DNA from: Crossaster papposus
Taxonomy: Eukaryota > Echinodermata > Asteroidea > Velatida > Solasteridae
Direction: 5' to 3'
Assembly: GCA_037893245.1 (NCBI GenBank)
Contig: JBAIAA010000697.1
Span: 992,001 to 1,056,000, forward strand
DNA length: 64,000 bases
In this document: positions 24,446 to 63,285 of the stretch, one piece after another
Layout of the letters: each line of letters starts with the position of its first letter
How positions within the stretch are numbered: the first letter of the stretch is position 1
Made by a program: the position numbers and the translations under genes
Notes under the pieces: generated by a model
Database searches by the model: none
What the model saw: the letters and a program-made list of their open reading frames with translations, nothing else
Told to the model about the DNA's origin: nothing

Positions 24446-24587
24446 ATGACGACATTCAACGAGACAACCGTTCTGACTTCACCCATCACCGCCCCCGAGC
24501 CTACACCAGCGGGGTCAGGATTGACTGCTGGACAGTGGGCACTCATTGGCGTTGCCATCAGTGGTGCCTCCCTGGTTCTGGGATTGT
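24446..24587 (+). CDS. transmembrane NLR, exon 1: outer stalk and membrane span
   Basis: ATG 24446 opens 47 codons, ending in phase 1 at a consensus donor (T|GTGAGT). The product starts MTTFNETTVLTSPITAPEPT: a short Ser/Thr/Pro-rich stretch with an N-glycosylation sequon (NET). A hydrophobic run follows (WALIGVAISGASLVLGL) and continues into exon 2 (LSLFV). No cleavable signal peptide is evident, so the likely topology is N-terminus outside (type III). The start is chosen because the paralogous exon aligns from its second ATG. Exon, donor and 5' flank are all paralogous to 2880-3009. It joins the later NACHT exon only through two short exons that share its phase; that joining is inference. 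Confidence 0.65.
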
Positions 24588-25801
24588 GTGAGTATGATTG
24601 GATATGCCTGATAAGCTCTGTTCATTATTGACCCCCTCCACGTCAAGAAAAGTTAGGGAGTCACTATCGTCGCCATCTTGCTTGGAGCAAGTTCGAGTGC
24701 CGCTGACCTAGTCCTATTTGTCAATTTACGATTTAAATTACGTATGCGTGGTCTGTTTTTCACTAAGAACGCGTCTTGTGGATCGCCCACGTCAAATCTA
24801 GTTTGTGAGCAGACAACATACTTGTTCACCATCTTTAATTTCTAATGTGCCAACCAACCCCGATCCTCTGTTCAAATTTGGTCGGACAGTCACGTGATTA
24901 CAGCACAACCGAGATCGCCAAAACGCTTAATCAATGACCGACGACCAAAACAGTTTTTGGTTGCTCTCGCCAAATAGTGGCCCTGACTTCAATTGCTTTA
25001 ATAATGATCTGGATATGGCAGGAGCCTGATGCAGTGAATCCCAAGAAGGGATTTGTTGAAATTGACGATTGATTGAATTTGTTTCGTTTTTGCTATGAAT
25101 AGTGGTTCTTGGTATTTTCTTCCGAAAAAAAACACAGTTCTGAGCTAATATCCCAGAAAGGAATTAGTTTGAATTTTTGTGATTTTTTTGTTTGGCTAAC
25201 TCTGATAGTAAAACACCGGCTTGCAATTTTGTTTTTGTAACAACTACATGTATGACCCCCTCCCCCCTCCCCGGACAAACAATTCGAAGGTCAATGATGG
25301 ATGGTTTAATATCCCAAGATGAGATTTGCAAAAATTTGGTCGAGTATATTAAAAACAATTAATAGAATATACAAACAAACATTTGTATATGGAAATTTCT
25401 GAAATTGATGATTGATAGATTTGTTTCTTTATAATTTACGCGGTTCTGGTCAAGTTCCGGACAGAAAATCTGAAGAGCGTTTTGAGCTAATATCCCCAGG
25501 TGGGTTTAGTGGAATGGTGACTAAATATATTGGCCTTTTTGCTGTTGGTAATAAACTTTTTTTGCAATTTTGTCTTTTAGTAAGAAATTTTCTAGACAGA
25601 TTTATATCCGGATATAATCCAAGAGACAATCCATGATACGGAATGCCTTTCGTTGCATTTTCTCCAGGCACTCTCTTTGGAATTTAGTAAGACCACAAAA
25701 CCAGGCTGGCGAGGCATAATCAAGAGTTGAATATGATTATAATATGATTATAACCTGTTGACGAGTATTTACTGAATAATGAAATTTTCGTTCTATTTCA
25801 G
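24588..25801 (+). other. intron 1 of the NLR gene
   Basis: Begins GTGAGT and ends in a pyrimidine-rich acceptor (ttcgttctatttcag). No recognised gene or repeat; AT-rich, with a C-rich run near 25256. Confidence 0.5.
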
Positions 25802-25858
25802 TATCACTTTTTGTCGGTAATAACCTCATTGGTAGGTGGCGGGATCGAAGGAGAGAAG
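25802..25858 (+). CDS. transmembrane NLR, exon 2: end of span and basic stop-transfer
   Basis: 57 nt, entered and left in phase 1, between a good acceptor (tctatttcag) and a good donor (GAAG|GTATGC). With T from exon 1 it reads LSLFVGNNLIGRWRDRRRE. The first residues complete the hydrophobic span. The RWRDRRRE run is a typical cytoplasmic stop-transfer, placing everything downstream inside the cell. It was recognised from splice borders and phase, not from length, so its confidence depends on the agreement of the four exons. Confidence 0.6.
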
Positions 25859-26096
25859 GTATGCATTAGTTAATTACGACTACGCCCAACCACTGTCTGA
25901 TAACCTGTTTACCGTTTAAAGACGGGCTCATGCTTAATGCCAATGCGAATCTGAATGCGATGTAAATGTGGTACACAAAAAGCATTCGCTGCAAAATTTG
26001 CCGCAGTTGACATGGGTTTAACTTTTCTAAATTCGCAGTACGAACGATCAGCTCTGACGTCATAGATTCGCGTTTTGAACTCGTGTGGAAATCTAG

Positions 26097-26284
26097 CCTT
26101 GGTCAAGGCGAGTTCGTCGCTATCCGTCCGTCGTTATCCGTCCCGAAATACACTGTGCGCGCGCACCGCATATATGCTGCTAGCTTGCGCCCCAAAGATA
26201 CAGCGCGAACAGCGACCTCATACGGCCACTATTTATGCAAATCTACTGAGGCTACTTTTTCGCCTTGGATCATTGGGTTTTTGA
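26097..26284. repeat. left arm of a long imperfect inverted repeat
   Basis: From CCTTGGTCAAGGCG to 'cgccttggatcattgggttt'. An inverted counterpart lies at 35213-35390 (both end blocks nearly identical, middle looser). It contains 'ggccactatttatgcaaat', an octamer-like (ATGCAAAT) promoter element, just upstream of the helicase-like reading frame. Confidence 0.75.
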
Positions 26285-26444
26285 AATCTTATGGTTTTCC
26301 TATATTTTGCGCCACATTTGTGGCGCATGACCTCGTATGCGAATACAGATAAGTATAGGCGGGGCTAAGATGTGAAGTGTCCAATCACAACACGGTTGAA
26401 TCCCGACGTCATCAAATTTGATGCAGCATTACATTTAAGACAAA

Positions 26445-26650
26445 ATGGCAGATATTCAGCGTCGTCTTTCGTCCGAAGATCTGTCGTGTTGTTTGAATTT
26501 TGCAGCGAAAATATTATCCCTCGAAGATTTTAGACCCGAGCAGCGAAAGGCCATTAGAATCCCTTCTTCGTGGTCACGGTGTTTTTGTGAATTTGCCGAC
26601 AGGTTATGGGAAATCCGTCATTTTTCAGGCAGCCTGAGCCCCATTTTGCT
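26445..26650 (+). pseudogene. RecQ-type DNA helicase, N-terminal fragment
   Basis: ATG 26445 gives MADIQRRLSSEDLSCCLNFA, then 'SLEDFRPEQRKAI', the RecQ motif 0 (FRPxQ..AI). After a one-base insertion at about 26553 the next frame gives 'SLLRGHGVFVNLPTGYGKSV', which is motif I (Walker A, LPTGYGKS). The fragment stops soon after. The remaining helicase motifs are absent nearby. It lies in intron 2 of the NLR gene, same strand, 160 bp after the left inverted-repeat arm, which may be its old promoter. A decayed or truncated copy; the frame break makes it non-functional as it stands. Confidence 0.7.
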
Positions 26651-27164
26651 CGGAGCTCGCACGTACGGCCAGGTACTCAGCGTCAGTTTTCAGCGTGTTC
26701 GGTCAGTTTCTTATCGCCGCATAATCGGCATTAACCCAGGCATGCTGGTCTGTGCGTTATCGCCACATCGTATGGTCCAAGCATGGTCCAACGCTGTGGT
26801 GAGGGGGCATGTTTACGGCTGCAGAACCAACCTTCAAAGTGATCGCAATGTCGTAATTTAAACAGGGACAATTGTCTTATATCCTCAGTAACTCCTCAGA
26901 TTATTTACTTGGCAAAATTCAGCCGGCAAGGCATTTAATTATCAGAGTTTTACCGAGCCAGGGTTTTCAGATTAGCTGGATTAGATGCGTGCGATATAAT
27001 GTAGGGCCGAGTTCGACACGTTTCAATAGAGTCGCGGCCTTCCCGAGTCCAGTCACCGCGGTTGAAAACTCAAAACTAAGCAGCTAAACGCAACTAGTTT
27101 TGACCATAACATTGTCAACATTCAATAAAATATCCAGCAAAACGAGCGAAAATAACTGCGACGC

Positions 27165-28258
27165 TAACCAATCAAGCAAGACAGTTCAAATCTACGGTCA
27201 GTCGGAAAACATCATCTGTTTCTGCTGAGTCATTAATAGAATGTCTTAGTACTAACCCATTTCCCATTACTGACGATGACTCTGTCGACCAATTGGTCCA
27301 AAACTACAACTCCACAATGAGACGTGTTATTGATCGTCTTGCTCCTGAAACTACCAAGTTCTTTGCGGTCAAACCTAGAGCGCCGTGGTTCTGTGATGCA
27401 ATCCGTCAGAGCAGACAAGAAACTCGTCGACTAGAAAGAAACTGGATAGCTAATCCTCTGCAGGTAAACACGCAGATTTTTAAAGCCAAGCAGTCAGGAC
27501 ACAATCAACTTGTAAAACAGACAAAGGAGTTGTATTACCGGCATAAAATCCAGAATTGCGACCAGAGAAAACTATTTACTGTAATAGATGACATGATTGG
27601 CAACAAAGCAGCTGCGGCAAAGAAATTGCCTCAACACGACAACGATCAAAAATTAGCCGAACAGTTTTTAGACTTTTTTAATAGCAAAATAAATCGTCTT
27701 CGAGGGCAACTGATGCATGTTCCAGGTGATATTACATGTGTTTCTACTGAACTTGGTCACTCATTCATGTATTTTAGTACAATTAACAAAAAGGTTCTGA
27801 TCAGATTCATGAAATCAATGAACTCTAAATCGTGTGTTTTGGATCCGATCCCGACTCACTTTTTGAAAGCTGGTCTTCCTTATGTTTCAACGCATTTGTT
27901 ATCAATTGTAAACAAATCTTTTGTTTCGGGCGTTTTTCCATCAGAATTAAAAACGGCTATCATAGGACCTCTGTTGAAGAAGTCTGGATTGGATCCAAAT
28001 GAATTGTGTAATTACAGACCTGTGTCAAATGTTCCTTTCGTTGGTAAATTAATCGAGAAAATAGCTGCTGACCAGCTTCATGCATACTTGGTCCGATTCT
28101 CATTGTTATCCAAATTTCAGTCAGCTTATCGGCAGTATCACAGTACTGAGTCAGCACTGTTGAAAGTTCAAAACGATATTTTGATTTCACTTGACAATCG
28201 GAAAGAGATTGTTTTAGTTATGCTTGACTTGACTGCCGCTTTCGATACCATTGATCAT
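27165..28258 (+). mobile_element. L2-like LINE, 5'-truncated, first part (linker and RT N-terminal half)
   Basis: An open frame from about 27165 starts in the linker between endonuclease and reverse transcriptase ('RAPWFCDAIRQSRQETRRLE'). It then enters the RT domain: 'SCVLDPIPTHFLK', 'NYRPVSNVPFVGKLIEK', 'FQSAYRQYHSTESALLKV', and 'VMLDLTAAFDTIDH' (catalytic motif A). It breaks off at 28258, where a minus-strand LINE is inserted, and resumes at about 33735. No endonuclease is present, so the copy is 5'-truncated. Motif style is that of the L2/CR1 group. The reading frame looks largely intact. Confidence 0.88.
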
Positions 28259-28851
28259 TTGTTGTTTTATTTAACCAGGGTGGTCTTTTCAGTTAAAAAA
28301 AACTGCTTTCCAAAAGGGCCCTGCATATAACCTAAATAGTATTTAAAACAGAAATGGAAATAAAACAAGATCAAAAATCTAAAATTTAAATCTAAAATTT
28401 AAATCTAAAATCTAAATTAACCTTTTTAAATTAACATTAAAATTACATTCAAATAAAAATTAAAAGACCATACAGAAAAAGATATTATTAGATCCAAAGA
28501 CTATTCCAATAAATACAAACAGCACCTTAATTAAAAGCATTAAGACTGCTGTTTTATATGAATTTAAAAACATGAGATTCAGCAAACAAATACAATGATG
28601 AAACATAATTATAGCAAACAAAATTCATATAAAATACGAATTTGAATATGCAAGACAATAAGAACAAAATTAAAATACATAAAAAACAATGACAGTAAAG
28701 AAAGAACAGGACAAATAAAAACAAAAAATCAATGAACAAGAAATAAAAATGATAAAAACAAGGACAAGGCTTAATAAACATTGGTTTTCGATAAGTAAAA
28801 TCTAGAGACAAAATGAACTTAAAAGATATAAAAATAAAGTTGCCAGCAAAA

Positions 28852-30366
28852 TTAATTTAAAAGAGCTTTAAAAACATTTAAAGAACTGGCTCTTCGCTGG
28901 GTTGTGGTTAAGTTGTTCCATCCCAGGGTCCCGCAATACTGAAATGTGCGCTTGGCGGCATTTGTTTTCGGAACAAAGGGCAGATGTAACAAACCGTTTG
29001 ACTTAGAACGAGTATTGGCAGTATGAGAAGGTATTTTAAAGCGATCACTAAGATACGCTGGACTGAGGTTATTGAGACATTTATATACTTGACATACTCT
29101 GTGACAATCCCAGCGCGATTGTAATGATGACCAAGAGAGTGCCTGGTGTAAATCGCTAATATGTGTCCTAGGATGAGCATTAAGGATTAATCTGGCAAGA
29201 CGATTATGTAGTTTTACCAACTTGTCAGAATGACAGTGTGCACTATTGGACCAGACCACATCGCAATAATCAAACAAAGGAATAACCATGGCGGAACTTA
29301 ACATTTTGAAGGTGGGACTAGGAAGACACGGTTTAGCACAACGTCTTAAAAACCCTATTCTCTGTGAGATCTTCTTGGCAATATAGTCAGTGTGGTCGGC
29401 CCATGTCAGTTGCTCATCTAGAATTACTCCAAGATATTTATAATGATTTACTCGTTCAATTACCGCATCGTTGACTGCTATCTGAACTTGGGCAAATGCG
29501 GATAGACGTGGGCGAGTTCCAAAAATCATGAACTTAGTTTTGCTCACATTTAAAGTAAGTTTATGCTGATTAAGCCACTGGGACACTTTACTGATCGCCG
29601 ACATCATACCACATTTAATATTATCCGGGGAAGTGCCATCAATCATAATCATAGTGTCATCTGCATACATACTGACTTTGGTTCCTGGAAAAGCAATACT
29701 TGAAGGAAGGCTGTTAATAAAAAGAATAAAAAGAAGAGGCCCTAAAATAGATCCCTGTGGGACCCCAACACTGACATTAGCAAGAGGTGAATTAATGCCA
29801 TTGATTTGAGTGGACTGTTTTCTTCCTGAAAGGTAAGAGACAAACCAATTCAATTCAAGACCCTTGACACCACAGCTAAGAAGTTTGGAAAGAAGAATGT
29901 TATGGTCAACGGTATCAAAGGCTTTCTTGAGATCTAAAAACACAACACCTGTCACCTTACCAGAATCCATGTTATTTAATAAGTGATCCATGACATCTAG
30001 GACTGCAGTTTGTGTGGAATGGCGAGGTCTAAAACCAGACTGAACTGTAACAAAGAAGTTAATAGTATTAAGAAAACTAAACAGCTGGTTGTACACTGCT
30101 CTCTCAAGGATTTTACTAACTGATGGTAAAACAGAGATCGGTCTATAATTGGAATACTCTTCCTGATTACCGCTTTTAAAAACAGGGGTAACCTTTGCCA
30201 TTTTCCATCCTTGTGGCACGATACCTTCAGCTAAAGATTTATTTATAAGATAAGTTAAAGAAGGACAGATTGCAGGACAGGCAATCTTAAGAAATTTAGA
30301 AGATATTCCATCAAGTCCTGTTGCAGTAGAAGAGTCCATGTGTTTAATTTGTTCCTTTACAAAATA
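28852..30366 (-). CDS. CR1 LINE ORF2, reverse transcriptase half
   Basis: Open from about 30386 (first Met 30339) to 28852. Motifs in order: 'MDSSTATGLDGISSKFLK', 'NYRPISVLPSVSKILERAV', 'FRPRHSTQTAVLDV', 'VFLDLKKAFDTVDH' (motif A), 'VPQGSILGPLLFILFIN' (motif B), 'MYADDTMIM' (catalytic YADD), 'FMIFGTRPRL' and 'YKYLGVILDEQLTW'. The C-terminal 'FDYCDVVWSN' region follows. The enzyme copies LINE RNA into DNA at the nicked target. Key catalytic Asp residues are all present. The upstream endonuclease is in another frame. Confidence 0.9.
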   Translation of the reverse strand, partial: YFVKEQIKHMDSSTATGLDGISSKFLKIACPAICPSLTYLINKSLAEGIVPQGWKMAKVTPVFKSGNQEEYSNYRPISVLPSVSKILERAVYNQLFSFLNTINFFVTVQSGFRPRHSTQTAVLDVMDHLLNNMDSGKVTGVVFLDLKKAFDTVDHNILLSKLLSCGVKGLELNWFVSYLSGRKQSTQINGINSPLANVSVGVPQGSILGPLLFILFINSLPSSIAFPGTKVSMYADDTMIMIDGTSPDNIKCGMMSAISKVSQWLNQHKLTLNVSKTKFMIFGTRPRLSAFAQVQIAVNDAVIERVNHYKYLGVILDEQLTWADHTDYIAKKISQRIGFLRRCAKPCLPSPTFKMLSSAMVIPLFDYCDVVWSNSAHCHSDKLVKLHNRLARLILNAHPRTHISDLHQALSWSSLQSRWDCHRVCQVYKCLNNLSPAYLSDRFKIPSHTANTRSKSNGLLHLPFVPKTNAAKRTFQYCGTLGWNNLTTTQRRASSLNVFKALLN

Positions 30367-31604
30367 AGCTGTAGTATAGGAGCAAAATTAAACACATTAG
30401 TGTCCTGTGTGGTAGCAGAATTAGGTTCAACGTGACTAAGATTGGCGTGGACTTCAAAATTGTGTGCCAGATCCGAGCCAATACTGACAAAATAATTATT
30501 AATGTCATTAGCAAGCTTATGTTTGTCAACGTTTGCACTAGTTGGCAAAGTAGCCGTTTTCTTAATGGAACTTGCCTCCTTGGCTAATAACCACATTTTC
30601 CTAGAGCTGCCTGCATTATTGGCAATGGCGTTTTCATAATATTTCTTCTTTAAACGCTTAGCCAAGTTATTAGCTTGGTTGCGCAATTGTTTGGCAGCAT
30701 GCCAATCGTTGGGGTTACCTGTTTTTTGCGCTTTAGATCGCAGAAAGTCACGTTTACGTCCAAGGTCCAGCATATCTTTAGTCATCCAAGGTGCCATGGA
30801 GTTTCTCTTCTGCCTTATCTGCCTATATGGAGCATGTATATTGCAAACATCGTTAAACATTTGTTCCCAAGTGTCCCAAGCAACATTAATATCAGAAACG
30901 TTTTCAATCAAATGCCAAGGCATGCGAAGCATGTCTTCTAAAAACCGATCTTCATTAAATTTTTTGAAATTTCTGACTGTTGTGACCCTGGGAGGAGCTT
31001 TAAGATTAACATTGATTTTCCTGTTACATAAAACCATACTGTGGTCACTGATACCAAGAGGAATAACATTAATTACATTAATTTTCTTAGCGTGAGATGT
31101 CATAAAAAGGTCAATGCAAGTACTGGAAGTTAAAGTGACTCTTGTAGGACTGTTAACTAGTTGAGATAACTGCAACTCACAGCAAAAGTCATTAACTTTT
31201 TTACGTTCTGCATTATCAAACATATTTAAGTTAAAATCACCGGCAACAATTAATTCATGATTACCATGAATACACTTGTTAGTAATATCATACTTTAATT
31301 TTAAAAGATGTTCCGGTTTTTTGTTCGAAAGGTACGCAACCACTAAAATAATAGGCTTACTTTTCTTTAGACTTATTTCCACCCAGCAAGATTCGGTGTC
31401 ATAGTTTTCTCGAGTCATGACACGATGAGAAATATTATTCGAAATATAACATGCAACACCTCCGTGGTTATCAGGACCTATACGATCAGCACGAATCAAA
31501 GTGAAGTTATCAATATTGACTTCTGTGTTGTTAATACCACCATGAAGCCAGGTTTCACTCAAAGTGAAAATATGAATTTCATGCTCAGCCATGAGAAGAC
31601 GCAA
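30357..31604 (-). CDS. CR1 LINE ORF2, AP-like endonuclease half
   Basis: 415 codons, an APE-type endonuclease: 'HIFTLSETWLHGGI' (catalytic Glu), 'GGVACYI', 'VVAYLSN', 'LIVAGDFNLNMFD' (GDFN), 'STCIDLFMTS', and 'GISDHSMVL' (SDH). It cuts target DNA to prime reverse transcription. A linker runs into the RT but reaches a stop at 30357 in this frame, while the RT frame is already open from about 30386. A single small frameshift around 30360-30386 would explain this. The start Met is internal to the usual family start, so the N-terminus may be shortened. Confidence 0.88.
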   Translation of the reverse strand: MRLLMAEHEIHIFTLSETWLHGGINNTEVNIDNFTLIRADRIGPDNHGGVACYISNNISHRVMTRENYDTESCWVEISLKKSKPIILVVAYLSNKKPEHLLKLKYDITNKCIHGNHELIVAGDFNLNMFDNAERKKVNDFCCELQLSQLVNSPTRVTLTSSTCIDLFMTSHAKKINVINVIPLGISDHSMVLCNRKINVNLKAPPRVTTVRNFKKFNEDRFLEDMLRMPWHLIENVSDINVAWDTWEQMFNDVCNIHAPYRQIRQKRNSMAPWMTKDMLDLGRKRDFLRSKAQKTGNPNDWHAAKQLRNQANNLAKRLKKKYYENAIANNAGSSRKMWLLAKEASSIKKTATLPTSANVDKHKLANDINNYFVSIGSDLAHNFEVHANLSHVEPNSATTQDTNVFNFAPILQLIL

Positions 31605-31789
31605 CTGATCAATTTTGGGTCTCAGGCTTTGTATATTTAGATGAGCAATTTTTAAGCCTCTAACCTTTTAAAACTTGTCAAGGGTGATAAAACTGTGATC
31701 ATTATTAGCCAAGAAATTATTTGTGGTAAAAGAAACATTGTTTGGCGGCCTGTCATTAATCGCCTCAACAAAGTTAATGGTGTTATTAT

Positions 31790-33304
31790 CTATGGGTTCC
31801 GCTTGTTGTGCGTTACTTTTACCCGATATCTGCGCCATTCCTCCTCCTGTGACGGTAGTGGGGTGCGCTGCCTGTGAGGAGTCGCTGGACGGACTGTTGG
31901 GCAGAAATCTGACGTGGTGTACCTTTTCCGTCGTTTCCATTCCTGATGACGAAAATCCCAGTGATCGATTATATTTCTCCCACTCTCTATCGGTGTTGTA
32001 TGTCTGGTAGTAACTTCAGCGTAGGTCGGAATTTCAGTGTCGTTGATGCAGGGCATTTTCTTCGACTGTGTCGTCGTTGGTGAGATCCGTTGCTCAATGT
32101 TCAATGCGGCGTACGAGTTTTTACTAGGTGGCAGGCCTCTCAAGTGACGGATAAGGTTTTGTGCAAACTTGGTAGTGCCAAAACGTCCAAGATGAACACC
32201 GTCTGAAGCAAGAGATCTTGGTCCGATGTTGTCATTGTTAATGAATTTCCATTTGTGTTTGTCGCAGAATTCATTTATTAGAATGTTTGCTTTCGATATG
32301 CTATGACATTGGTGATGATTCTCACTTCTCCTGTGGATGATTGACGATACACTGATATCGGTGACGGGATACTTCTTCTGGGCCATTTCACAGAGTGATT
32401 CCAGTTTGCTAGCGATCGTCTGAGCATCATCTTTAGTATTATTCGTACCAACATGGATAATGAGCTCAGCCATGCTAGGATCGATGGATCTAGATTCCAG
32501 AACTCTTGAGATGTCTTCAAACTTTGCCCCAGAGTGTGAAGTGACTGTGGCTGACTTGGATTGGCTCAGCTTATTACCTCTGATGTTTTTAATCATGGAG
32601 TCGCCGATAAGGGTAACAGTTTTATTGGATCGCTGCTTAAAATGTGCCGTCTGTTTGGCACGATACTCCTTCATCTGATCATGGAACGGTAGGCCTGTCT
32701 GTGGTATGGTATTGCGTATTGGGGTGGTTGGAGGTGAGAGCGTTTCCCTTTGGTTGGATGTAGGGGTTTGTTGAGATTTATTATTGACCAACGTGTCGAA
32801 GTATATGTCAATGACCTCCTCGGGAGATAAATCTGGCTCATTCGGGTCAGGAACTTGATCAGAAAGCAGCTTAAATCTGTTTGAACATTCAATACCAGAC
32901 TCCGATTGAGTGGTGGGTGCGAGTCTTGAAGAACTGCCATTCGACTTGTGAAGAGACAGACGACTACGTTGCCTTTTGTTGTTAACCGACATCCATGACG
33001 TGCTTGACGGGGCGCTTGTGACGGCCACATTGTGAGTGTCGTCTATTGTCATGTTGGTTGCTATGTGACAACAATGGTCATTGATTGTGGTTGTTAGTAG
33101 TTCTATTGTTTCTTTCATGTTGTCGTTTTCCTTTTCCAACGATTTTACTTGAGAATTAAGATGATCGTTTTCCAAAAACTGTATTCTCAGGGCACTTATT
33201 TCATTCCTCATTTCTTCCAAAGACATTCTCAAATGCTTGAGTTCATCTCCTGGTGAAGGATCTCGATTGACATGGTCTTGGTCTGCCTTTGTAGCATGTA
33301 ACAT
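31790..33304 (-). CDS. CR1 LINE ORF1 with coiled coil and SGNH/GDSL esterase domain
   Basis: 504 codons. Residues ~20-85 form a heptad-rich coiled coil (DELKHLRMSLEEMRNEISAL and following). Residues ~235-390 are an SGNH-type esterase: 'VTLIGDSMIKNI' (nucleophile Ser), 'LIIHVGTNNTKDD' (Asn block) and 'LASDGVHLGRFG' (Asp and His). The tail is Pro/Arg-rich. ORF1 proteins of CR1 elements commonly have this esterase; the role is probably in RNA-protein or membrane association. All four catalytic blocks are seen. The frame runs up to about 130 bp downstream of the 33437-33730 frame. Confidence 0.88.
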   Translation of the reverse strand: MLHATKADQDHVNRDPSPGDELKHLRMSLEEMRNEISALRIQFLENDHLNSQVKSLEKENDNMKETIELLTTTINDHCCHIATNMTIDDTHNVAVTSAPSSTSWMSVNNKRQRSRLSLHKSNGSSSRLAPTTQSESGIECSNRFKLLSDQVPDPNEPDLSPEEVIDIYFDTLVNNKSQQTPTSNQRETLSPPTTPIRNTIPQTGLPFHDQMKEYRAKQTAHFKQRSNKTVTLIGDSMIKNIRGNKLSQSKSATVTSHSGAKFEDISRVLESRSIDPSMAELIIHVGTNNTKDDAQTIASKLESLCEMAQKKYPVTDISVSSIIHRRSENHHQCHSISKANILINEFCDKHKWKFINNDNIGPRSLASDGVHLGRFGTTKFAQNLIRHLRGLPPSKNSYAALNIEQRISPTTTQSKKMPCINDTEIPTYAEVTTRHTTPIESGRNIIDHWDFRHQEWKRRKRYTTSDFCPTVRPATPHRQRTPLPSQEEEWRRYRVKVTHNKRNP

Positions 33305-33436
33305 GGCGGCAGTGTTTAAAGTAACAGCAGCCTGGTCGTTTAGAGAAGATTCAATGGCTGATGTACATTTCAGTTTCGATGACGAGAGGCACGATCTAGG
33401 GAATCGTTTTCGCCGGCCAGTGAGATACAGGTATAA

Positions 33437-33730
33437 TTAAATAATGTCATCAGTGATGGCCTCGACTGATCGCCTAGACTTTAAGGTCAAATGATCCATG
33501 GGACCTTGTGTAGTATTATCTTCGCCATTTTGTAGCGTCTGTACCTGTTTGGCTTCAGCTGACAAGAACAGCTTATTCCTGATGTCGTGAAGCTCATCGG
33601 GACTTAGATTGTCTGTCATCTGCTTCTTAATCAATACCGGTGGTAATCTGCCGATTTGACGGATGATTGGTTGGCCATTTCTGCAGATATTCCGAAGAAA
33701 GACTGGAGCAGTTAAATCTTGTGCTGCCAT
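33437..33730 (-). CDS. small frame at the 5' end of the CR1 LINE
   Basis: 97 codons beginning MAAQDLTAPVFLRNICRNGQ at the very 5' edge of the nested LINE. It is hydrophilic with no recognised domain. It may be an N-terminal extension or separate small ORF of the element, or merely open 5' UTR. The position fits a full-length insertion; the function is unknown. Confidence 0.4.
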   Translation of the reverse strand: MAAQDLTAPVFLRNICRNGQPIIRQIGRLPPVLIKKQMTDNLSPDELHDIRNKLFLSAEAKQVQTLQNGEDNTTQGPMDHLTLKSRRSVEAITDDII

Positions 33731-33734
33731 GTCG

Positions 33735-35047
33735 CAATGTCATTCTATGTCCATTCTACTTCATAGATTAGAAAACAGGTATGGGATTACAGATTTGGCC
33801 CTTCAGTGGTTCACTTCCTACCTAGTGGGTCGTACCCAAAGGATTTGCATTGGGTCAGCAAAGTCAGAGTTGAATCCTTTGCTTTTTGGTGTGCCACAGG
33901 GAAGTGTACTTGGGCCAATTTTGTTCGCATTATACCTTGCACCGTTAGACGATATTTTCAAGAAACGTGACATCAATTTTATGTTGTATGCTGATGACAA
34001 CCAGCTGTACGTATCCTGTAAGAATGGTAATAATTCAAAGGTTCATCTTGAAGCATGTGTTAAGGAAATTAGACAATGGATGTTTTTGAACAAGCTTACT
34101 TTAAATGATTCGAAGACTGAGGTGATTCATTTTCATTCCTCGTTTCGTAAATGCGACCTTTTGTCAGGTTTGCACGTTGGAAATAATGATATTACTCCTA
34201 GCACAGTCATTAGGAATCTCGGTGTGTATTTTGATAAACACTGTAATATGGCTACTCATGTCTCTAAAATGTGCCAATCAGGATATTTTGCTTTGCATCG
34301 CATTAGCAAAATTCGCAATGTTTTAGATCGCACCACTACTGAACGTCTTATCCATGCCTTCATTACGTCACGGTTGGATTATTGCAATAGCCTACTTTAC
34401 GGCCTTCCTGACTATTTAATCCATAGGCTACAATTGGTTCAAAACTCCGCCGCTCGCCTTATTACTCGTACTAAGAAATATCAGCACATCGCCCCTGTTC
34501 TCCAAAGTCTTCAATGGATTCCTGTGGCACAGCGTATTGAGTTTAAGATCCTTATCTTGGTTTATAAAATCTTACATAAACACGCACCTGGTTATTTGTC
34601 GGATTTGTTGACAGTTCGGGAAAGTTCTATAGCCACTCGCTCCTCCACTGAAACACGCCTAGTCCAGCCCCGTTTCAATCAAAATCACTATGGCATGCGT
34701 GCGTTTTCAGTAGCAGCGCCCAGTGTTTGGAATAAACTTCCTTATTTTATTCGTAACGAACCTTCTCTTTTATCTTTTAAGTCTGCATTAAAAACGTATT
34801 ACTTCCGTCAGGTTTTTAAATAACATCCATGATGACTAACTGATTGTGGTTTTAATGTATTTTGAGTATACTTGGTATTTAAATTAATTGATTGGTGATG
34901 TATTAGCATTTTTTAATGTGCTCTTAGTGTATTTAATGATATCTGTTGTATTACTTGTAAATTTGTTGTATTTATTTGTAAAGCGCATTGAGATTGTGCC
35001 AATGATGTAATGCGCTATATAAGAATAAACTATTATTATTATTATTA
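33735..35047 (+). mobile_element. L2-like LINE, second part (RT C-terminal half and 3' end)
   Basis: Resumes the host LINE: 'ILLHRLENRYGITDLALQWF', 'GVPQGSVLGPILFALYL' (motif B), 'MLYADDNQLY' (catalytic YADD), 'FLNKLTLNDSKTEVIHF', 'LDYCNSLLYGLPDYLI', 'LQLVQNSAARLIT', and ending 'FKSALKTYYFRQVFK' with a stop at 34823. The 3' UTR ends 'gcgctatataagaataaac' plus an ATT repeat, the L2-type tail. Together with 27165-28258 this is one element of about 2.4 kb split by the CR1 insertion. Confidence 0.9.
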
Positions 35048-35212
35048 CAAGCCTTCGTAAAAATCACTCAACTTTCTTCGATAAAATATGTCAACGATGG
35101 CGTGGTGTTCGTAAACACTTGCGAGCTAGCTATGACCTTTCATCGCTAGCTCAAATTATGCAGTTTCTACGCAACGATTGACCAATAAGAAAACGACTAT
35201 AAAGGTCAGCTT

Positions 35213-35390
35213 AATCTATTAGCATAATGAGCACCGCCCCCAAAACCTAATGATCCAAGGCGTTCGAGTATCCTCAGTTAGTTTGCATATAATAGTGGCC
35301 GCGTAAGGTCGTTGTTTAAGCACCGATTACCGCTGCGCTGTACGTACGGACGGGTAACGATGAACGCCTTGACCAAGGCCAGTGAAAATC
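35213..35390. repeat. right arm of the long imperfect inverted repeat
   Basis: Reverse complement of the 26097-26284 arm: 'cctaatgatccaaggcgt' at one end and 'cgccttgaccaagg' at the other, with 'gtggccgcgtaaggtcgttg' between. The arms enclose about 9 kb, including the RecQ-like fragment and both LINEs. Confidence 0.75.
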
Positions 35391-35467
35391 GGACTCCTAT
35401 TACCTATAAAATGGTTGAACGCTATCACGTGATCGGTCACGCTCCTAATTATCTTGGAATATTCGGA

Positions 35468-35656
35468 AAGGTGGGGAGGAGGGGTGGGGAGGAGGGGGGA
35501 GGAGGGGTGGGGAGGAGGGCGGAGGAGGGGTGGGGAGGAGTGGGGAGGAGGGCGGAGGAGGGGTGGGGAGGAGGGGTGGGGAGGGGAGGGGAGAGGTGGG
35601 GAGGGGGGGGGGGAGGAGAGGTGGGCAGGGGAGGGGAGAGGTGGGGAGGAGGGGGG
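35468..35656. repeat. purine (G/A) minisatellite
   Basis: Tandem units around GGGGAGGAGGGGTGGGGAGG. Strand-asymmetric, G-quadruplex-prone. The Gly/Glu/Arg/Trp-rich frames across it are artefacts of the repeat. Confidence 0.9.
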
Positions 35657-36004
35657 TCGTTTGACTATAGAGGGCGCTGTTCACATATGTAGGCATATGT
35701 TACGCCCATTTCTATAATTTTTATTTTATTAACAAACCAGTATTTCTGAGAAAAAAAATCGGTATGAAGAAAGTGAAGTACATTTGAAAGAATTGATGCA
35801 TGTACTGTGTAGTTTGCGGCTGGGGATTCCGAAATGCCTACAATAGGAGGGATATTCCAATTGCGTGACTGGAAGGGACAAATCATCAACACAAAAGACT
35901 GTATAGGGACGCGGCTTGGCCACTCCCGTGTCCTATTTGTTCAGAAAAGTCCCAGTCAAATAATTTGAATGCGACCTAACTCTTGGATGTCACGTTTTAT
36001 TCAG

Positions 36005-36085
36005 AGCGGAGACGTCACTCAGGGAACCAGGGAGATGACATCGAACCAGGGACACCAATGATACCTACGCCTACTGATCCAGGAG
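36005..36085 (+). CDS. transmembrane NLR, exon 3: basic and Pro/Thr linker
   Basis: 81 nt, phase 1 in and out, between acceptor 'cgttttattcag' and donor GGAG|GTAAAT. With G from exon 2 it reads E, then RRRHSGNQGDDIEPGTPMIP, then TPTDPG: a basic juxtamembrane patch followed by an acidic/proline linker. It lies about 390 bp before the NACHT exon and about 10 kb after exon 2; that distance is explained by the LINE nest. Identified by splice borders, openness and phase only. Confidence 0.55.
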
Positions 36086-36329
36086 GTAAATCCACACGCA
36101 GAAAAATGGACACATAATTATGATTTAAGAAGTATCCGTTGGCGGCCTGGGTTAAAATGATCCTCGTAAAAAAACCACTTTGGACAAATCATGACTAAAT
36201 ACTTTACCGATAGTTTCTCGAACACTCTACTTCTATTGACCTTTGAGTTTTTTAATAAATGAATTACAGACGAAACGGAACCCATTTTCATTATGTTTTG
36301 ACAGGATTTTGTTGTTTTACTCTTCACAT

Positions 36330-36430
36330 CTTAAACGAGTCAGCCAGGATACAGTACGACAAGGGATACTATAGACTCTATATTCCAACTCAACTTGCTA
36401 CCAATAAGTGTGAGCTAAAATTAAAATACC
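36330..36430 (+). pseudogene. degenerate local duplicate of the start of the NACHT exon
   Basis: 'acgagtcagccaggatacag' and 'ccaataagtgtgagctaaaa' align with 'acgagttcgtcgagtg...' and 'tgataagtgtgagaagac' at 36477-36580. The copy is short, gapped and not preceded by a proper AG acceptor. It is a relic of a small tandem duplication. Confidence 0.6.
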
Positions 36431-36474
36431 CGATTAACATGGTTTGATTTCGATTTGTCCTTTTGTTACATTAG

Positions 36475-38690
36475 AAACGAGTTCGTCGAGTGAGAGGCGA
36501 CAACAACCAGGATGCAGTACGACGCGGAAGAGACGACTCAGGGATTCTAAACTTGCTGCTGATAAGTGTGAGAAGACGCTAAAAGACATCTACATCAGCA
36601 CGGGGAGCTATGTGCAGATGCTGCCATGGGTGGATGATGACCAAAAACACATCATGGACATCTACACAAAGCTACAATTAGAAAAAGGTGATAGGGATTT
36701 GAAGGGAGAGGTGAAATCGTATTGGGATATTTTCAAACTCAAAACAAGAGAGGGCCATCGAATTATACGGGCAATTTTAAGCGGAGGGGCTGGTCTAGGG
36801 AAAACGACTCTCCTTGACAACATTGCCCACGATTGGGCTCGAGGCACTGTTGCTGCACTAAAAAAGTACAAGCTTGTTTTTGTGTTGAAAATGGGTTCCC
36901 TGAAACAAACGTCGGATGTGATAGATGCACTGTTCGATCAGTTGTTAGATAAAGAGACCATAAACAGGAAAGACTTGGAATCCTTCATTGCAGCCAACCC
37001 TGACGACGTGTTGTTTCTGTTAGATGGTTTTGATGAATTCAGGTCGACTGAGCTTGATGAGTCAGAGTTCGGTTCGATTCTTAAAATGCTTAATCGAAAG
37101 GGAAAGTATGCAAAATGCAATGTACTTGTGACAACCCGCCCCTCACACTATGACAAGCTGGTAAAGAACACTTTGATTCAGAGGCCGTTTGCTCGTGTGA
37201 ATGTCTTAGGGTTTAGCGAGGACGATGTTGGGGAATATGTGCACAAATTTTATTCAGAAGAATCATCCAAAGCTTATGGACTTTTTGAGAGAATTGTATC
37301 CTCTGATGTTTTATTAGATTTGGCCAAAAGTCCCATGCTGTTGTTATTGATGTGCTTGTTATGGAAAGACAGTGCTACACTCCCTGACACCATGTTTCGC
37401 CTTTATAATGAGGCACTGCGTTATATATTTAAACGTAAAACAAACATGTCAATAGAAGAGATTTCAAGGCTGGTTACTGCTATTGGAAAGGTTGCTTTGC
37501 GTGATCTACTTTCTTCTGATCAAAATTTATCATTCCAAGAGGGGGATTTTGAGCCGGATGTGCTTGAAATGGCCTTACGAGCTGGCATCCTCACCAGCGA
37601 GCGAGTCTTGAAGGGGACTGACAATTCCAAAATCGTTTATTTCATTCACAAGACGTTTCAAGAATTTTCCGCTGCGATATACTACCAGAGTTTAACATCG
37701 GAAGGAGAAACGCGTGAATTTGAAACGTTCTTTCGTCAAGTGTTTAGGCATAATTTACCAGGATTTGAATATCTTCTGCGTTTTTGTTGCGGTGACAGTG
37801 ATGGGCCACGGACAAATTCAATTCTGAAGATAGTATCACATAAAGTCACAAATGCATGCGATCTATATGATCCAGCCATACAAGTAGCCTTGAAATGTTA
37901 CTTTGAAAGTCAGAGCAAGACATTGCCACCGTTGGAGTTAATTAATTCCGTTATTGGTTCAAATCTACATATTATTGTTCCAGGGATTGACATCGTTTAT
38001 GTACTTCCTAAACAACGTTACCGATGACCAGGAAAGGAGTGGCGGAAATACTTTCCTCGAAAACATAGATACATTAACAATGGATCTTCGCAGCATTCGA
38101 CAGTTGGGTGCAAAATACGTGAATTGTATGAACAGAATGACAAATCTTAAAAGAATTGAAGTAATTGACCAAAAAGCTAGATTTCCAGGCACAAATATAT
38201 TTCTTGAAGACAAAAGGAAACGTACACGTTTCCTTTTGTCTCTACGTCTGAAGAAAATGACGCAGCTTCGGGCCGTGACCTTCGATGGTTGCCTCCTAAC
38301 AAGCAGTAACATGGAGCACATTGGGCAACTGAGTAATGTACCCAACCTTTTTGAATTGAGTCTGTCTGACAATGAGACCCTTGGTGGATCAGGTCAGTCA
38401 TGGTCTCACTTGAAGAAAATCAAAAGCCTCAACAAACTAGTCTTGAGTTCCTGCGAATTGAAAAGTGATGACTTGGAGCACATTGCCGAGGCGCTGAGTA
38501 ATCTGCCCAACCTTGTTGAATTGGATCTGAGTTACAACGATACCCTTGGTGGATCAGGTCGGTCATGGTCTGTCCTGACAAAAATGAACCACCTAAGAAT
38601 GCTTTTTTTAGCGGGCTGTCATTTGACCGCTGACGATAGGGCAGAAATCACCAAAGCAGTGAGTCAAATGACCAGCCTGTATGTGGTATA
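36475..38690 (+). CDS. transmembrane NLR, exon 4: NACHT ATPase and short LRR region (frame broken)
   Basis: Acceptor 'gttacattag' leads in phase 1 into ETSSSSERRQQPGCSTTRKR. A conserved pre-NACHT block follows ('LKDIYISTGSYVQMLPWVDD'), then Walker A 'SGGAGLGKTTLL', Walker B 'VLFLLDGFDEF', sensor 'VLVTTRPSHY' and the NLR motif 'FIHKTFQEFSAA'. The frame stops at 38027; the next frame (from about 37990) carries on with 'LTSFMYFLNNVT' and two LRR modules to 'ITKAVSQMTSLYVVY' at about 38688. Against the second copy, 8 nt are missing near 37985. As it stands the product would be a membrane NACHT protein of about 610 residues without LRRs. NLRs sense intracellular microbial or danger signals. The original stop codon after VVY has been lost at the duplication junction. 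Confidence 0.8.
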
Positions 38691-38696
38691 TCCAAA

Positions 38697-41385
38697 ATGG
38701 GTTACGATTGGGCCTGTGGCACTGTTGATGCACTAAAAAAATACAAGCATGTTTTTGTGTTGAAAATGCGTTCCCTAAAACAAACGTCGGATGTGATAGA
38801 TGCACTGTTTGATCAGTTGTTAGACGAAGCGAACATTAATAGGGAAGACTTGGAATCCTTCATTGCAGCCAACCCTGACAACGTGTTGTTTCTGTTAGAT
38901 GGTTTTGATGAATTCGGGTCGACTGAGCTTGATGAGTCGGAGTTCGGTTCGATTCTTAAAATGCTTAATCGAAAGGGAAAGTACGCAAAATGCAGTGTAC
39001 TTGTGACAACCCGCTCCTCACACTATGACAAGCTGGTAAAGAACACTTTGATTCAGAGGCCGTTTGCTCGTGTGAATGTTTTAGGGTTTAGCGAGGACGA
39101 TGTTAAGGAATATGTGCACAAGTTTTATTCAGGAGAATCATCCAAAGCTGATGGACTTTTTGAGAGAATTGTATCGTCGAATGTTTTATTAGATTTGGCC
39201 AAAAGTCCCATGCTGTTGTTATTGATGTGCTTGTTATGGAAAGACAGTGCTACACTCCCTGACACCATGTTTCGCCTTTATAATAAGGCACTGCATTACA
39301 TATTTAAACGTAAAACAAACATGTCAGAAGAAGAGATTTCAAGGCTGATTACTGCTATTGGAAAGGTTGCTTTGCGCGGCCTACTTTCATCTGATCAAAA
39401 GTTATCATTCCAAGAGGCGGATTTTGAGCCAGATGTGCTTAAAAAGGCCTTACGAGCTGGCATCCTCACCAGCGAGCGAGTCTTGAAGGGGATTGACACT
39501 TCCAAACCCGTTTATTTCATTCACAAGACGTTTCAAGAATTTTCCGCTGCGATATACTACCAGAGTTTAACAGAAGAAGAAACGCATGAATTTGAAACGT
39601 TCTTTCGTCAAGTGTCTGATTTAGCTGGGTTTGAATACCTTCTACGTTTTTGCTGCGGTGACAGTGAGGGGCAACGTACAAATACAATTTTGCAGATGTT
39701 ATCGCATAAAGTCAAAATTGCAGGCAATCTAGGTGATAACGCCATACGAGTAGCCTTGCATTGTTACTTTGAAAGTCAGAGCCAGACATTGCCACCGTTG
39801 GAGTTAATTAATTCCGTTATTGATTTAAATCTAAATATTGGTCTACCAGGGAGTGATGATTTGACATCGTTCATGTACTTCCTAAACAACGTTACCGGTG
39901 ACCAGAAAAAGGGTGGCGGAAATACTTGCCTCAAAAAGATACATACATTAACAATGGATCCTCGCAGCATTCGACAGTTGGGTCCAAAATACGTGCATTT
40001 TGTAAACAGAATGCCAAATCTTCAAAGAATTGGAGTACATAGGCCTACTAACCAAATGGGATTTGCAAGCACAATTAGAATCTGTAAAGACAGTACACGT
40101 TTCATTTTGTCTCTACGTCTGAAAGAAATGACGCAGCTTCAGGCCGTGACCGTCAATCATTGCAACCTAACAAGCAGTGACATGGAGCACATTGTTGGGC
40201 AACTGAGTAATCTGCCCAACCTTGTTGAATTGGATCTGTCTGACAATGAGACCCTTGCTGGATCAGGTCGGTCATGGTCTCACTTGAAGGAAATCAAAAC
40301 ACTCAACAAACTAGACTTGTGTTACTACGTATTGAGAAGTGATGACTTGAAGCACATTGCCAAGGCGCTGGGTAATCTGCCCAACCTTGTTGAATTGGAT
40401 CTGTCTCGCAATACGACCCTTGGTGGATCAGGTCAGTCATGGTCTCACTTGAAGGAAATCAAAACACTCGACAAACTAGACTTGGGTTATTGCGGATTGA
40501 GAAGTGATGCCTTGAAGCATATTGCCGTGGCGCTAAGTAATCTGCCCAACCTTGTTGAACTGGATCTGTCTCGCAATAAGACCCTTGGTGGATCAGGTCG
40601 GTCATGGTCTCACTTGAAGGAAATCAAAACACTCAACAAACTAGACTTGGGTGACTGCGGATTGAGAAGTGATGACTTGGAGCACATTGCCGTGGCGCTG
40701 TGTAATCTGCCCAACCTTGTTGAATTGGATCTGTCTCGCAATACGACCCTTGCTGGATCAGGTCAGTCATGGTCTCATCACTTGAAGGAAATCCAAACCC
40801 TCAACAAACTAGACTTGTTTTTTTGCGGATTGAGAAGTGATGCATTGAAGCACATTGCCGAGGTGCTGGGTAATCTTCCCAACCTTGTTGAATTGAATCT
40901 GTCTCACAATGAGACCCTTGGTGGATCAGGTCGGTCATGGTCTCACTTGAAGGAAATCAAAACACTCAACAAACTAGACTTGGGTGACTGCGGATTGAGA
41001 AGTGATGACTTGGAGCACATTGCCGTGGCGCTGGGTAATCTGCCTAACTTTGTTGAATTGAATCTGTCTGGCAATGAGACCCTTGCTGGATCAGGTCGGT
41101 CATGGTCTCACTTGAAGGAAATCAAAACACTCAACAAACTAGACTTGGGTTTTTGCAAATTGAGAAGTGATGACTTGAAGCACATTGCCGAGGCGCTGAG
41201 TAATCTGCCCAACCTTGTTGAATTGAATCTGTCTGACAATGTGGATCAGGTCGGTCATGGTCTGTCCTGTCAAAAATGAACCACCTCGTAAAGCTTTCTT
41301 TTGGGGCTGTTGGTTGACCACTGCCGATAGGGCAGAAATCACCGAAGCAGTGAGTCAAATGACCAGCCTGGAAGTGGTATATTAG
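38697..41385 (+). pseudogene. second NACHT-LRR copy, truncated at the NACHT start
   Basis: A tandem copy of the exon above beginning inside NACHT ('DWACGTVDALKKYKHVFVL'), so it lacks the membrane exons, pre-NACHT block and Walker A. It keeps Walker B ('VLFLLDGFDEF'), 'VLVTTRSSHY' and 'FIHKTFQEFSAA'. It is open for 860 codons to 41279. The LRR part is expanded into about seven 168 bp modules of two LRRs each ('LPNLVELDLSxNxTLxGSGR', 'SWSHLKEIKTLNKLDL', 'GLRSDDLEHIAVAL'). Near 41240 about ten bases are missing relative to copy one, shifting the frame; the ancestral stop (VVY then TAG) is at 41383-41385. No promoter or start of its own is seen. Probably a pseudogene, or usable only as a source for gene conversion. 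Confidence 0.82.
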
Positions 41386-60789: not shown

Positions 60790-63285
60790 GGAGGGGAGAT
60801 GGAAGTTCGGTTAATACAAGACAATATCGGCGAGGCCAGACTACCTTCTGGCCGACGCGAGTATACCTCCCGGTGTCCGGTTCTGTCGGTGGAGAAGGTG
60901 GCCGATCACACCCTACCTCGGGCTCACCCAGCCCCGGATCTAGTAGAGTCACACGGCGCTTCTAGGCTCGTAGCTGGTACCCTCCGCCCGACGATCGTAC
61001 TGTTGCTTCTGGTGCGTCTTGCCTTCCTACAGGTGTTGCCGAGCGAATTCGTGAGCGCGCTCAATCTTCTCTCCAACTCGTCCACATAATCCTGTTCCGT
61101 CGCCCCTGCCGTCGGCTCCTCCGGCTGACCCACCATCAAGTCCAACGGAAGTCGCACCTCCCGGCCGAGCATGAGCATGTTCGGCGTGAACTTGGTGATG
61201 TCGTGCTGGGAGGAACGGTACGCCATCATGACGTATGGGAGGTGTTTGTCCCAGTCATACTGGTTCTCCTGCACAAACAGGCCCAACTTCGTCTTGACGG
61301 TGCGGTTAAACCGCTCCAACATTCCGTCAGACTGAGGTTGGAACGGCGTAGTGTGGGTCTTGTGGACGCCCAGTAGACGACATGTGTCCTGGAAGAGCCA
61401 GGCCTAGAACTTCCTCCCCTAATCCGTGTAGATCTCGAGGGGGCACCAAACCATGATGCTTGTATTCCTGGTCTTGTCTTCTGGAACTGGCACGTGAGGT
61501 CGAATGCGAGGCACTCCATCGGCGCACCCACCAAGTACTGCTGCAGTGGGGCCCGGAGGGGTCGAGTGGGTGGCTTTTTGGACCCACACTTGTGGCATTT
61601 CCGGCACCACTCTTCCACCCGAAGTCACATTCATTGGAAGTATACCGACGCCTGTTTCAGCCGAGCAACTGTCTGGGCAATTCCAAGTGCCCCGATATCC
61701 TGCCATCAAAGGTAAACCGTTGGACGTCCTTCACCCGCGTCCGCAGGACCACTATCTTTGAAGCCAGGGGTCCGCCATGAAGCTGCTCCCACCTTATCTG
61801 CAATACGCCGTGAGACAGTCGCAGGGTCTTCCACTTCGCCCACCAGAACTTCGTGCCCTCGACCAGGGCCGACAAGTCCGACCAGCCGGGTCTGGGAGCC
61901 CCATCCTCTAGCCACTGGGCAGTCCAGCCCAACTCCGGGTTGTCGCGCTGTTCCCGTTTCAGCTTATCGGGGTCCTAAGCCGCCAAGAGTCCCTCCACAG
62001 TGGTGGTCTCCCCCGCTCAGCTTCCCCAACTGCTCCCAGCAGGGGCCCCTTGGTATAGACTCGTGGCTGTTCTCGTCCGATCGCCAACACCGACCGCACG
62101 GATAATATATGCTAGGCCGGACTACCTTCCGGCCGGCGCGAGTATACCTCCCGGTGTCCAGTTCCGTCGGTAGAAAGGGTGGCCGATCGGACCCACCTAG
62201 GGCTCACCCAGCCCCGGATCTGTGCCCGTCTTCTCCTGCCAGTCGAAGGCGACATTCGCCTCTTTCACTTCCGGTGGCAGTTCCTCCCCATCCGACTGGT
62301 CACTCATGTCCGCCGGCAGCCCCGCAGAAGGAACCCCCGGCGCTGGGCTAGATGCTGGCAATGCCTGCTAGTCTGGAGGCGGCTGTCCTTCCTCCGTAAC
62401 TCGGATAGGCTCCACCGGTTGGTCCCGTGCAGCGTGGCTCCACCAGTCCACCAGGGCGTCACCCAAGTACGGTTTCAGCCGGTTGAAATGTTGAACCACC
62501 TTGGCCTTGGCGCGAGGTGACTTCTTGATCCGGAATGTGACGTCGTCGGTCCTCTTCAGCACCACGAAGGGCCCATCCCACCAGCACTGCAGCTTGGCCG
62601 TACGACCCACCTTATTGGAGGGGAGGGGGAAAAGGGGGGTGGGGGGGGGGGGGGGGGGGGGTGGGGTGGGTAGAGTCACACGGCGCGTCTAGGCTCGTAG
62701 CTGGTACCCTCCGCCCGACGATCGTACTGTTGCTTCTGGAGCGTCTTGCCTTCCTACAGGTGTTGCCGAGCGAATTCGTGAGCGCGCTCCATCTTCTCTC
62801 CAACTCGTCCACATAATCCTGTTCCGTCGCCCCTGCCGTCGGCTCCTCCGGCTGACCCACCATCAAGTCCAACGGAAGTCGCACCTCCCGGCCGAGCATG
62901 AGCATGTTCGGCGTGAACGTGGTGATGTTGTGCTGGGAGGAACGGTACGCCATCATGACGTATGGGAGGTGTTTGTCCCAGTCATACTGGTTCTCCTGCA
63001 CGAACAGGCTCAACATCGTCTTGACGGTGCAGTTAAACCGCTCCACCATTCCGTCGGACTGAGGGTGGAACGGCGTAGTGCGGGTATTGTGGACGCCCAG
63101 TAGACGGCAGGTGTCCTGGAAGAGCTAGGTCTCGAACTCCCTCCCCTGATCGGTGTAGATCTCGAGGGGGTCGCCGAACCATGATGCTTGTATTCCTGGT
63201 CTTGTCTTCAGGAACCGGCACATAAGGTCGATTGCGAGGCACTCCATTGGCGCACCCACCAAGTACTGCTGCAGTGGGGCCCGGA

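Follow-up and report, generated by a model that had tools for sequence, protein, structure and literature searches.

A clustered NLR gene family in the sea star Crossaster papposus with a predicted single-pass membrane anchor ahead of NACHT

A 64,000-nucleotide stretch of the genome of the sea star Crossaster papposus (hereafter the window; C697:992001-1056000) contains a gene in which three short exons stand upstream of an exon encoding a NACHT domain. Here, we find that this four-exon arrangement recurs in a family of genes across the searched assembly (1.02 Gb, 1841 contigs), that exons 1 and 2 together encode one hydrophobic span, and that what appears to be the same NACHT exon is also found behind Death domains. 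As the best explanation of the data overall, and with good confidence, we read the window segments as the first four exons of a member of a large, clustered family of NACHT and leucine-rich repeat (LRR) receptors (NLRs) that would begin with a single-pass membrane anchor in place of a death-fold domain. The window copy itself is probably a damaged member of this family, a likely pseudogene.

Results

The first-pass annotation of the window had proposed, from sequence borders and intron phase, that three upstream segments join the NACHT exon to make one membrane-anchored NACHT-LRR receptor. The borders of exons 1, 2 and 3 and the NACHT acceptor (Table 1) fall exactly where it had placed them, all with GT/AG sites, and every join in the series exon 1-2-3-NACHT is phase 1. 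Splicing the four window exons in a script yields one frame that runs through an N-terminal tail, the span, a GRWRDRRRE flank, a linker and NACHT to a first stop at 38025, and we infer from the sequence that the four are spliced together in this order. The single frame predicted from the stalk through the LRRs thus holds as far as NACHT and fails at the LRRs, which are put out of frame by an 8-base deletion before 37987.

The exon encoding the tail and most of the span is found at 41 places genome-wide, window included, 40 of them detected by DNA and one by peptide. In the DNA search 40 of 47 candidates were scored, giving 41 matches of which two are pieces of one place; the last match of the peptide search, at E 8.25, was discarded as chance. 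Exon 3 yields 42 matching pieces at 40 places, and the loci that we fetched hold 23 distinct copies of exon 2, both counts again including the window. As the first-pass annotation had suggested looking for, the stalk-plus-span exon does stand ahead of other NLR genes in the same genome: at 35 of the 41 exon-1 places a scored NACHT match follows on that strand at no more than 15 kb, exon 3 follows at 31, and one or the other at 38. The reverse order, with a scored NACHT match on that strand no more than 15 kb upstream of exon 1, occurs at 3 of the 41. Of the three places without a downstream partner, C697:389448 is followed by a match to the NACHT exon at 393312 in another search. For two genes with exon 3 and no exon-1 match (L071 and L072), an exon 1 was predicted upstream, and once fetched both stretches proved to contain one, in frame and with the donor seen elsewhere in the family.

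To these we added seven paralogous gene models, assembled from overlapping loci. Together with the window they make eight models, and all eight have the six GT/AG sites, an exon 2 of 57 bases and an exon 3 of 81 bases; a four-exon, phase-1 architecture is supported across the family. The intact paralogue G1 encodes a complete protein of 1064 residues, comprising the tail, the span, an Arg-rich flank, the linker, NACHT and LRRs, the last in frame with NACHT as they are not in the window copy. Pfam matches to NACHT (2e-29) and LRR_4 (2.6e-15) in G1 lie above the cut-offs, as does the NACHT match in the window (2.5e-28). G1 has no Pfam match ahead of the NACHT region, and neither a death-fold nor an immunoglobulin (Ig) domain. 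The proposed NACHT-LRR gene with a predicted anchor and four phase-1 exons is supported for the family, in its splice sites, its open frame and its hydrophobic span with a basic flank, and not for the window copy as a working gene.

We parsed 27 copies of exon 1, 24 of them from the 41 places and the others from L068, L071 and L072; all except L068 are in frame from a homologous ATG to the donor. The in-frame copies come in ten lengths, always a multiple of three apart. Gaps in the intron 1 alignment of the MTT-type copies, counted per row, are multiples of three in only 29 of 143 cases. The first 200 bases of intron 1 diverge at 0.38 of compared sites, against proportions of nonsynonymous (pN) and synonymous (pS) differences of 0.20 and 0.12 in exon 1. 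Within the span part of exon 1, none of 32 distinct residue changes leads to D, E, K, R, H, N, Q, P or stop, where 31% would be expected (P 6.6e-6), while in the stalk 16 of 52 do (38.5% expected, P 0.16). As judged by this comparison of copies, the span is constrained in the kind of residue it accepts. Exon 1 taken as a whole gave no support for purifying selection, its pN/pS being above 1 and significance being confined to the span test, and the full exon 1 peptide may be diversifying. Pooled pN/pS is 0.181/0.211 in exon 2, and across 22 copies the ratio is below 1 in both the NACHT (0.054/0.116) and the pre-NACHT part (0.047/0.088), as under purifying selection. In L024, exon 1 seems to combine the two exon-1 subtypes (MEASAR... 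followed by MTTFN...), which would point to recombination inside the exon.

The maximum Kyte-Doolittle hydropathy over 19 residues is at least 1.6 in 24 of the 26 in-frame copies; the two that fall below it (L022 and L023) both come without exon 2 in the fetched locus. For G1, the observed hydropathy is attained by 0.96% of shuffles of its 66 N-terminal residues. At all 15 loci that have both exons of the span, the net charge is -2 to 0 before it and +1 to +6 after it. By the positive-inside rule the more positive flank of a span lies on the cytosolic side, which would place NACHT in the cytosol. A sequon lies within the first 12 residues in 21 of 26 copies. Where the MTT motif is present (16 copies), the middle residue of the sequon varies, being V in 8, L in 5, T in 2 and E in 1.

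A second kind of N-terminus is found ahead of NACHT in the same genome. We called NACHT genes transmembrane (TM)-type if exon 1 and/or exon 3 lies upstream, and Death-type if Death-domain matches lie within 20 kb upstream. Among 77 classified genes one N-terminus stands in place of the other, with 42 TM-type, 26 Death-type, 9 of neither type and none of both. Scoring covered 100 of 422 NACHT candidates and 150 of 450 for Death, so these numbers are minimum values and a few of the nine may be misplaced. The tally takes in 77 of 78 listed NACHT genes (C435:252407 was left out), and a further 22 NACHT matches on other contigs stand outside the classification. Of the 42 TM-type genes, 0 have a scored Death match in the 20 kb upstream (the genome-wide search was for Death, not for CARD, DED or TIR), and Death-domain matches sit on the same contigs as TM-type genes. 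NACHT open frames of at least 750 residues, long enough to include LRRs, are present in 31 of the 42 TM-type genes; the LRRs themselves were scanned in G1 and the window.

Reading the Death-type locus L077 from its Death exons to NACHT, we found the same NACHT acceptor as in TM-type genes, and both Death-exon donors are phase 1. This acceptor pattern recurs in 11 of 13 further Death-type loci and in L091, which is of neither type. The two loci that depart from it are L084, where by eye NACHT starts at the same point and the acceptor base is changed, and L079, where a stop stands in frame ahead of the pre-NACHT part.

In a tree of 35 NACHT exons (23 TM-type and 12 Death-type), the two types are not separated. 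The label changes six times (bootstrap 5-7), of which well-supported branches force only two, and grouping all Death-type exons in a single clade is rejected (p-AU 1.2e-6). Shuffled labels average 10.2 changes, with 1-2 of 500 shuffles as low as observed, so that some clustering of the labels remains. Left out of the tree were L056 and L057 (frame broken), L049 (the window copy), L091 (neither type), and L079 and L084 (acceptor pattern unmatched); L007 was kept despite a stop in its NACHT exon. Gene conversion or recombination within tandem arrays could mimic such mixing of labels. Whichever the cause, the N-terminal cassette and the NACHT exon, as these sequences relate them, are without one simple common history. 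A fixed pairing of TM-type and Death-type genes along the clusters was rejected, the 26 observed transitions being no better than chance (mean 25.9). Elsewhere, ten scored Death-domain matches stand in a row at C164:570050-579396, upstream of a NACHT match at C164:562857.

Compared with G1, the window NACHT exon has lost eight bases (site 37986..37987, + strand), which shifts the frame ahead of the LRRs, and the NACHT frame closes at the TGA at 38025-38027. With its LRRs out of frame with NACHT, this copy does not read as the working receptor that the first-pass annotation had described. A second, partial copy follows it and, by eye, has the longer form at the deletion site. Bases 344-2770 of the G1 exon align to window positions 38693-41125, and the second copy covers only positions 22-165 of the 167 in the NACHT profile, leaving it without a P-loop. 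Unequal recombination between tandem copies combined with a frameshift is the simplest reading of this arrangement, and an assembly error is a possible source of the damage.

Intron 2 measures 10,146 bp in the window, against 740-902 bp in the seven paralogous gene models. The first-pass annotation had expected a long intron filled by long interspersed nuclear elements (LINEs) to hide the gene structure. The intron is indeed long and LINE-filled here, but only in this copy among the eight models, so the structure need not escape gene models elsewhere. Between 27110 and 34823, a minus-strand LINE-type element (28852-33436) appears to be nested between plus-strand reverse-transcriptase pieces, and these (27110-28330 and 33660-34823) are perhaps halves of one older element. 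In intron 3, positions 36330-36415 look like a diverged partial duplicate of the start of the NACHT exon, upstream of the real exon; in the window this was recognized by eye only, and in several paralogue introns duplicate pieces of the NACHT-exon start match query bases 310-378 at 74-77%.

Further along the window, two similar minus-strand open reading frames (ORFs) at 60924-63124 look by eye like retroelement integrase tails, and match no Pfam family at E <= 0.001. Rfam gives no match in the window at the gathering score; all seven matches obtained are transfer RNAs in L074. In COX1 on the mitochondrial contig of the assembly, AAA stands for Asn at conserved Asn sites, AGA for Ser and TGA for Trp, in agreement with NCBI table 9, the code of echinoderms and flatworms, and the beginning of COX1 resembles that of echinoderms. 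Upstream of COX1 are a transfer RNA cluster and, by eye, an ND1-like frame on the opposite strand, an order of genes typical of sea stars. On contig C8 (at least 5.2 Mb; L073, L075 and L076), COX1 frames are without in-frame stops, and this contig possibly represents assembled DNA of a bacterial symbiont or contaminant.

Table 1. Coordinates of the window gene, its intron 2, the adjoining partial copy and the intact paralogue. Positions are those of the window unless a contig is named.
Feature	Position	Strand	Remarks
Exon 1	24446..24587	+	ATG start; Ser/Thr/Pro-rich N-terminal tail of ~28 residues with sequon N-E-T; most of hydrophobic span; phase-1 donor GTGAGT
Exon 2 (57 bases)	25802..25858	+	Rest of hydrophobic span and basic flank GRWRDRRRE; flanked by ...TTTCAG and GTATGC
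Intron 2	25859..36004	+	10,146 bp; expanded through insertion of LINE-type elements
Reverse-transcriptase piece, intron 2	27110-28330	+	ORF
Reverse-transcriptase piece, intron 2	28852-30387	-	ORF
Endonuclease ORF, intron 2	30357-31667	-	
Further ORF, intron 2	31790-33436	-	No Pfam match; assigned by eye to the minus-strand element
Reverse-transcriptase piece, intron 2	33660-34823	+	ORF
Exon 3 (81 bases)	36005..36085	+	Linker, basic then Pro/Thr: ERRRHSGNQGDDIEPGTPMIPTPTDPG; flanked by ...TTCAG and GTAAAT
NACHT exon	36475..38027	+	Preceded by ...CATTAG; Ser-rich linker, pre-NACHT, NACHT (Pfam 2.5e-28), part behind NACHT; TGA at 38025-38027
LRR segment, first copy	37942..38736	+	Frame differs from NACHT frame; LRR_8 1.7e-6
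Second, partial NACHT-LRR copy	38693..41279	+	Joined to LRR end of first copy; begins past P-loop
Paralogue G1	C697:1193000-1202476	-	Intact

Discussion

Hydropathy and charge together suggest that the span inserts into a membrane as a signal-anchor, with its N-terminus out and its C-terminus in, and such a topology would hold NACHT and the LRRs on the cytosolic face of that membrane, most likely the plasma membrane or the phagosome. The protein could then act as other NLRs do, by LRR-controlled sensing followed by NACHT oligomerization, here limited to the membrane surface. As no death fold was matched in G1, its output would have to be supplied by partner proteins or by the span once clustered. 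It might arise through co-assembly with sister Death-domain NLRs of the same clusters, whose closely similar NACHT exons would make them, speculatively, the obvious partners, or through the oligomerized span itself.

Several observations weigh against this reading. Pooled pN/pS exceeds 1 in exon 1 (0.204/0.123) and in exon 3 (0.108/0.074). Hydropathy alone is unspecific, as a stretch behind NACHT in G1 also reaches 1.88, and 5 of 26 exon-1 copies carry no sequon in their first 12 residues. NACHT frames are shorter than 750 residues in 11 of the 42 TM-type genes, gene model G7 has no frame above 150 residues in the fetched stretch, and L056, L057 and L007 have stops within the NACHT exon. No junction-spanning retrocopy was found among the 40 of 140 candidates that were scored (79 pieces listed), and the random order of TM-type and Death-type genes lends fixed sensor-helper pairs no support. 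Finally, a short tail followed by a basic C-terminal flank also fits an anchor of the mitochondrial outer membrane.

Among alternative explanations, the product could be a regulator or decoy, a Death-less membrane NLR that would soak up ligand or poison Death-NLR oligomers. We regard this as somewhat unlikely. It accords with the lack of any matched effector domain in G1, and the NACHT exon and acceptor held in common with Death-type sisters would make mixed oligomers plausible; nothing in the present data sets such a role apart from an activating one. The anchor might also belong to an organelle, as a mitochondrial outer-membrane (TOM20/TOM70-like) or other signal anchor, in which case the tail would lie in the intermembrane space and never be glycosylated while NACHT would still be cytosolic. 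This we hold to be unlikely: the short tail, the one hydrophobic span and the strongly basic C-terminal flank all suit it, but the sequon is kept in 21 of 26 copies while its middle residue varies, which suggests, though it does not prove, a lumenal tail. That the three segments represent decay or non-coding remnants beside an NLR gene with its real first exon elsewhere is very improbable, for while the frameshift before the LRRs, the rearranged second NACHT and an exon-1 pN/pS above 1 would fit such decay, the borders, phase, order and in-frame length changes are kept across the parsed paralogues and charged changes are absent specifically from the span.

If the family does encode membrane-anchored NLRs, an animal without adaptive immunity would be shifting one sensor between membrane and cytosol through exon exchange. 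The same sensor exon with two N-termini would also make a clean experimental pair for learning what membrane tethering adds to NLR signaling. We tentatively extend this to a two-part immune system, a proposal we think has a smaller chance of being right than wrong, in which TM-NLRs at the phagosome or cell surface sense and then recruit cytosolic Death-NLRs by NACHT-NACHT co-oligomerization, and recombination keeps shuttling one sensor between anchored and signaling forms.

Animal NLRs are generally called cytosolic in two reports (PMC5094078, PMC12909245), and the first-pass annotation had set the window gene apart on that ground. Membrane NLRs are indeed unusual, but published examples already exist from sea cucumbers, sea anemones and sponges. 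AjNLRC4 of the sea cucumber Apostichopus japonicus is an echinoderm NACHT protein that sits in the membrane, as is predicted for the Crossaster family; an antibody localized it to coelomocyte membranes, and its NACHT is reported as intracellular (PMC8699970). It has a large Ig-bearing ectodomain (1-482), two predicted spans (483-503 and 776-795) and no LRR, whereas the Crossaster family has a tail of ~28 residues, no Ig match in G1, one span, and LRRs that are kept in G1. AjNLR-new is also an echinoderm membrane NACHT protein, and differs in having Ig between two spans and a NACHT reported as extracellular (PMC13133943).

Sea-anemone NLRs resemble the family described here in carrying N-terminal spans, but these number several (3-5 transmembrane domains, in 8 of 35 NLRs; PMC5094078), in contrast to the single span, followed by an Arg-rich flank, that is encoded at ~40 places of the Crossaster genome. 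The NLRs of the sponge Dysidea avara are similar in being putatively membrane-bound, invertebrate and members of an expanded family (PMC12909245). In sea urchins, an N-terminal 2A-like motif ending in NPGP serves as a signal sequence and recoding element (PMC4981915), so that there too an echinoderm NLR N-terminus is able to act as a signal sequence; the motif is a different one from a span with a basic flank, and by eye none of the 26 exon-1 peptides contains an NPGP-ending motif.

The closest solved structures to the NACHT exon by sequence are NLRP3 and NLRC4, and nothing thus indicates a new NACHT class. Among the titles and abstract openings returned by our searches of open-licence PMC text, none describes a family of TM-NLRs with one span whose NACHT exon is shared with Death-NLRs. 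Membrane NLRs as such are known already, and we judge the anchor-NACHT layout to be unmatched in AjNLRC4, AjNLR-new and the anemone, sponge and sea-urchin NLRs as those accounts present them. What appears from the gene sequences to be new is that no classified gene carries both N-termini, that the NACHT tree does not part the two types, and that TM-type and Death-type genes use one phase-1 NACHT acceptor and lie mixed in the same clusters.

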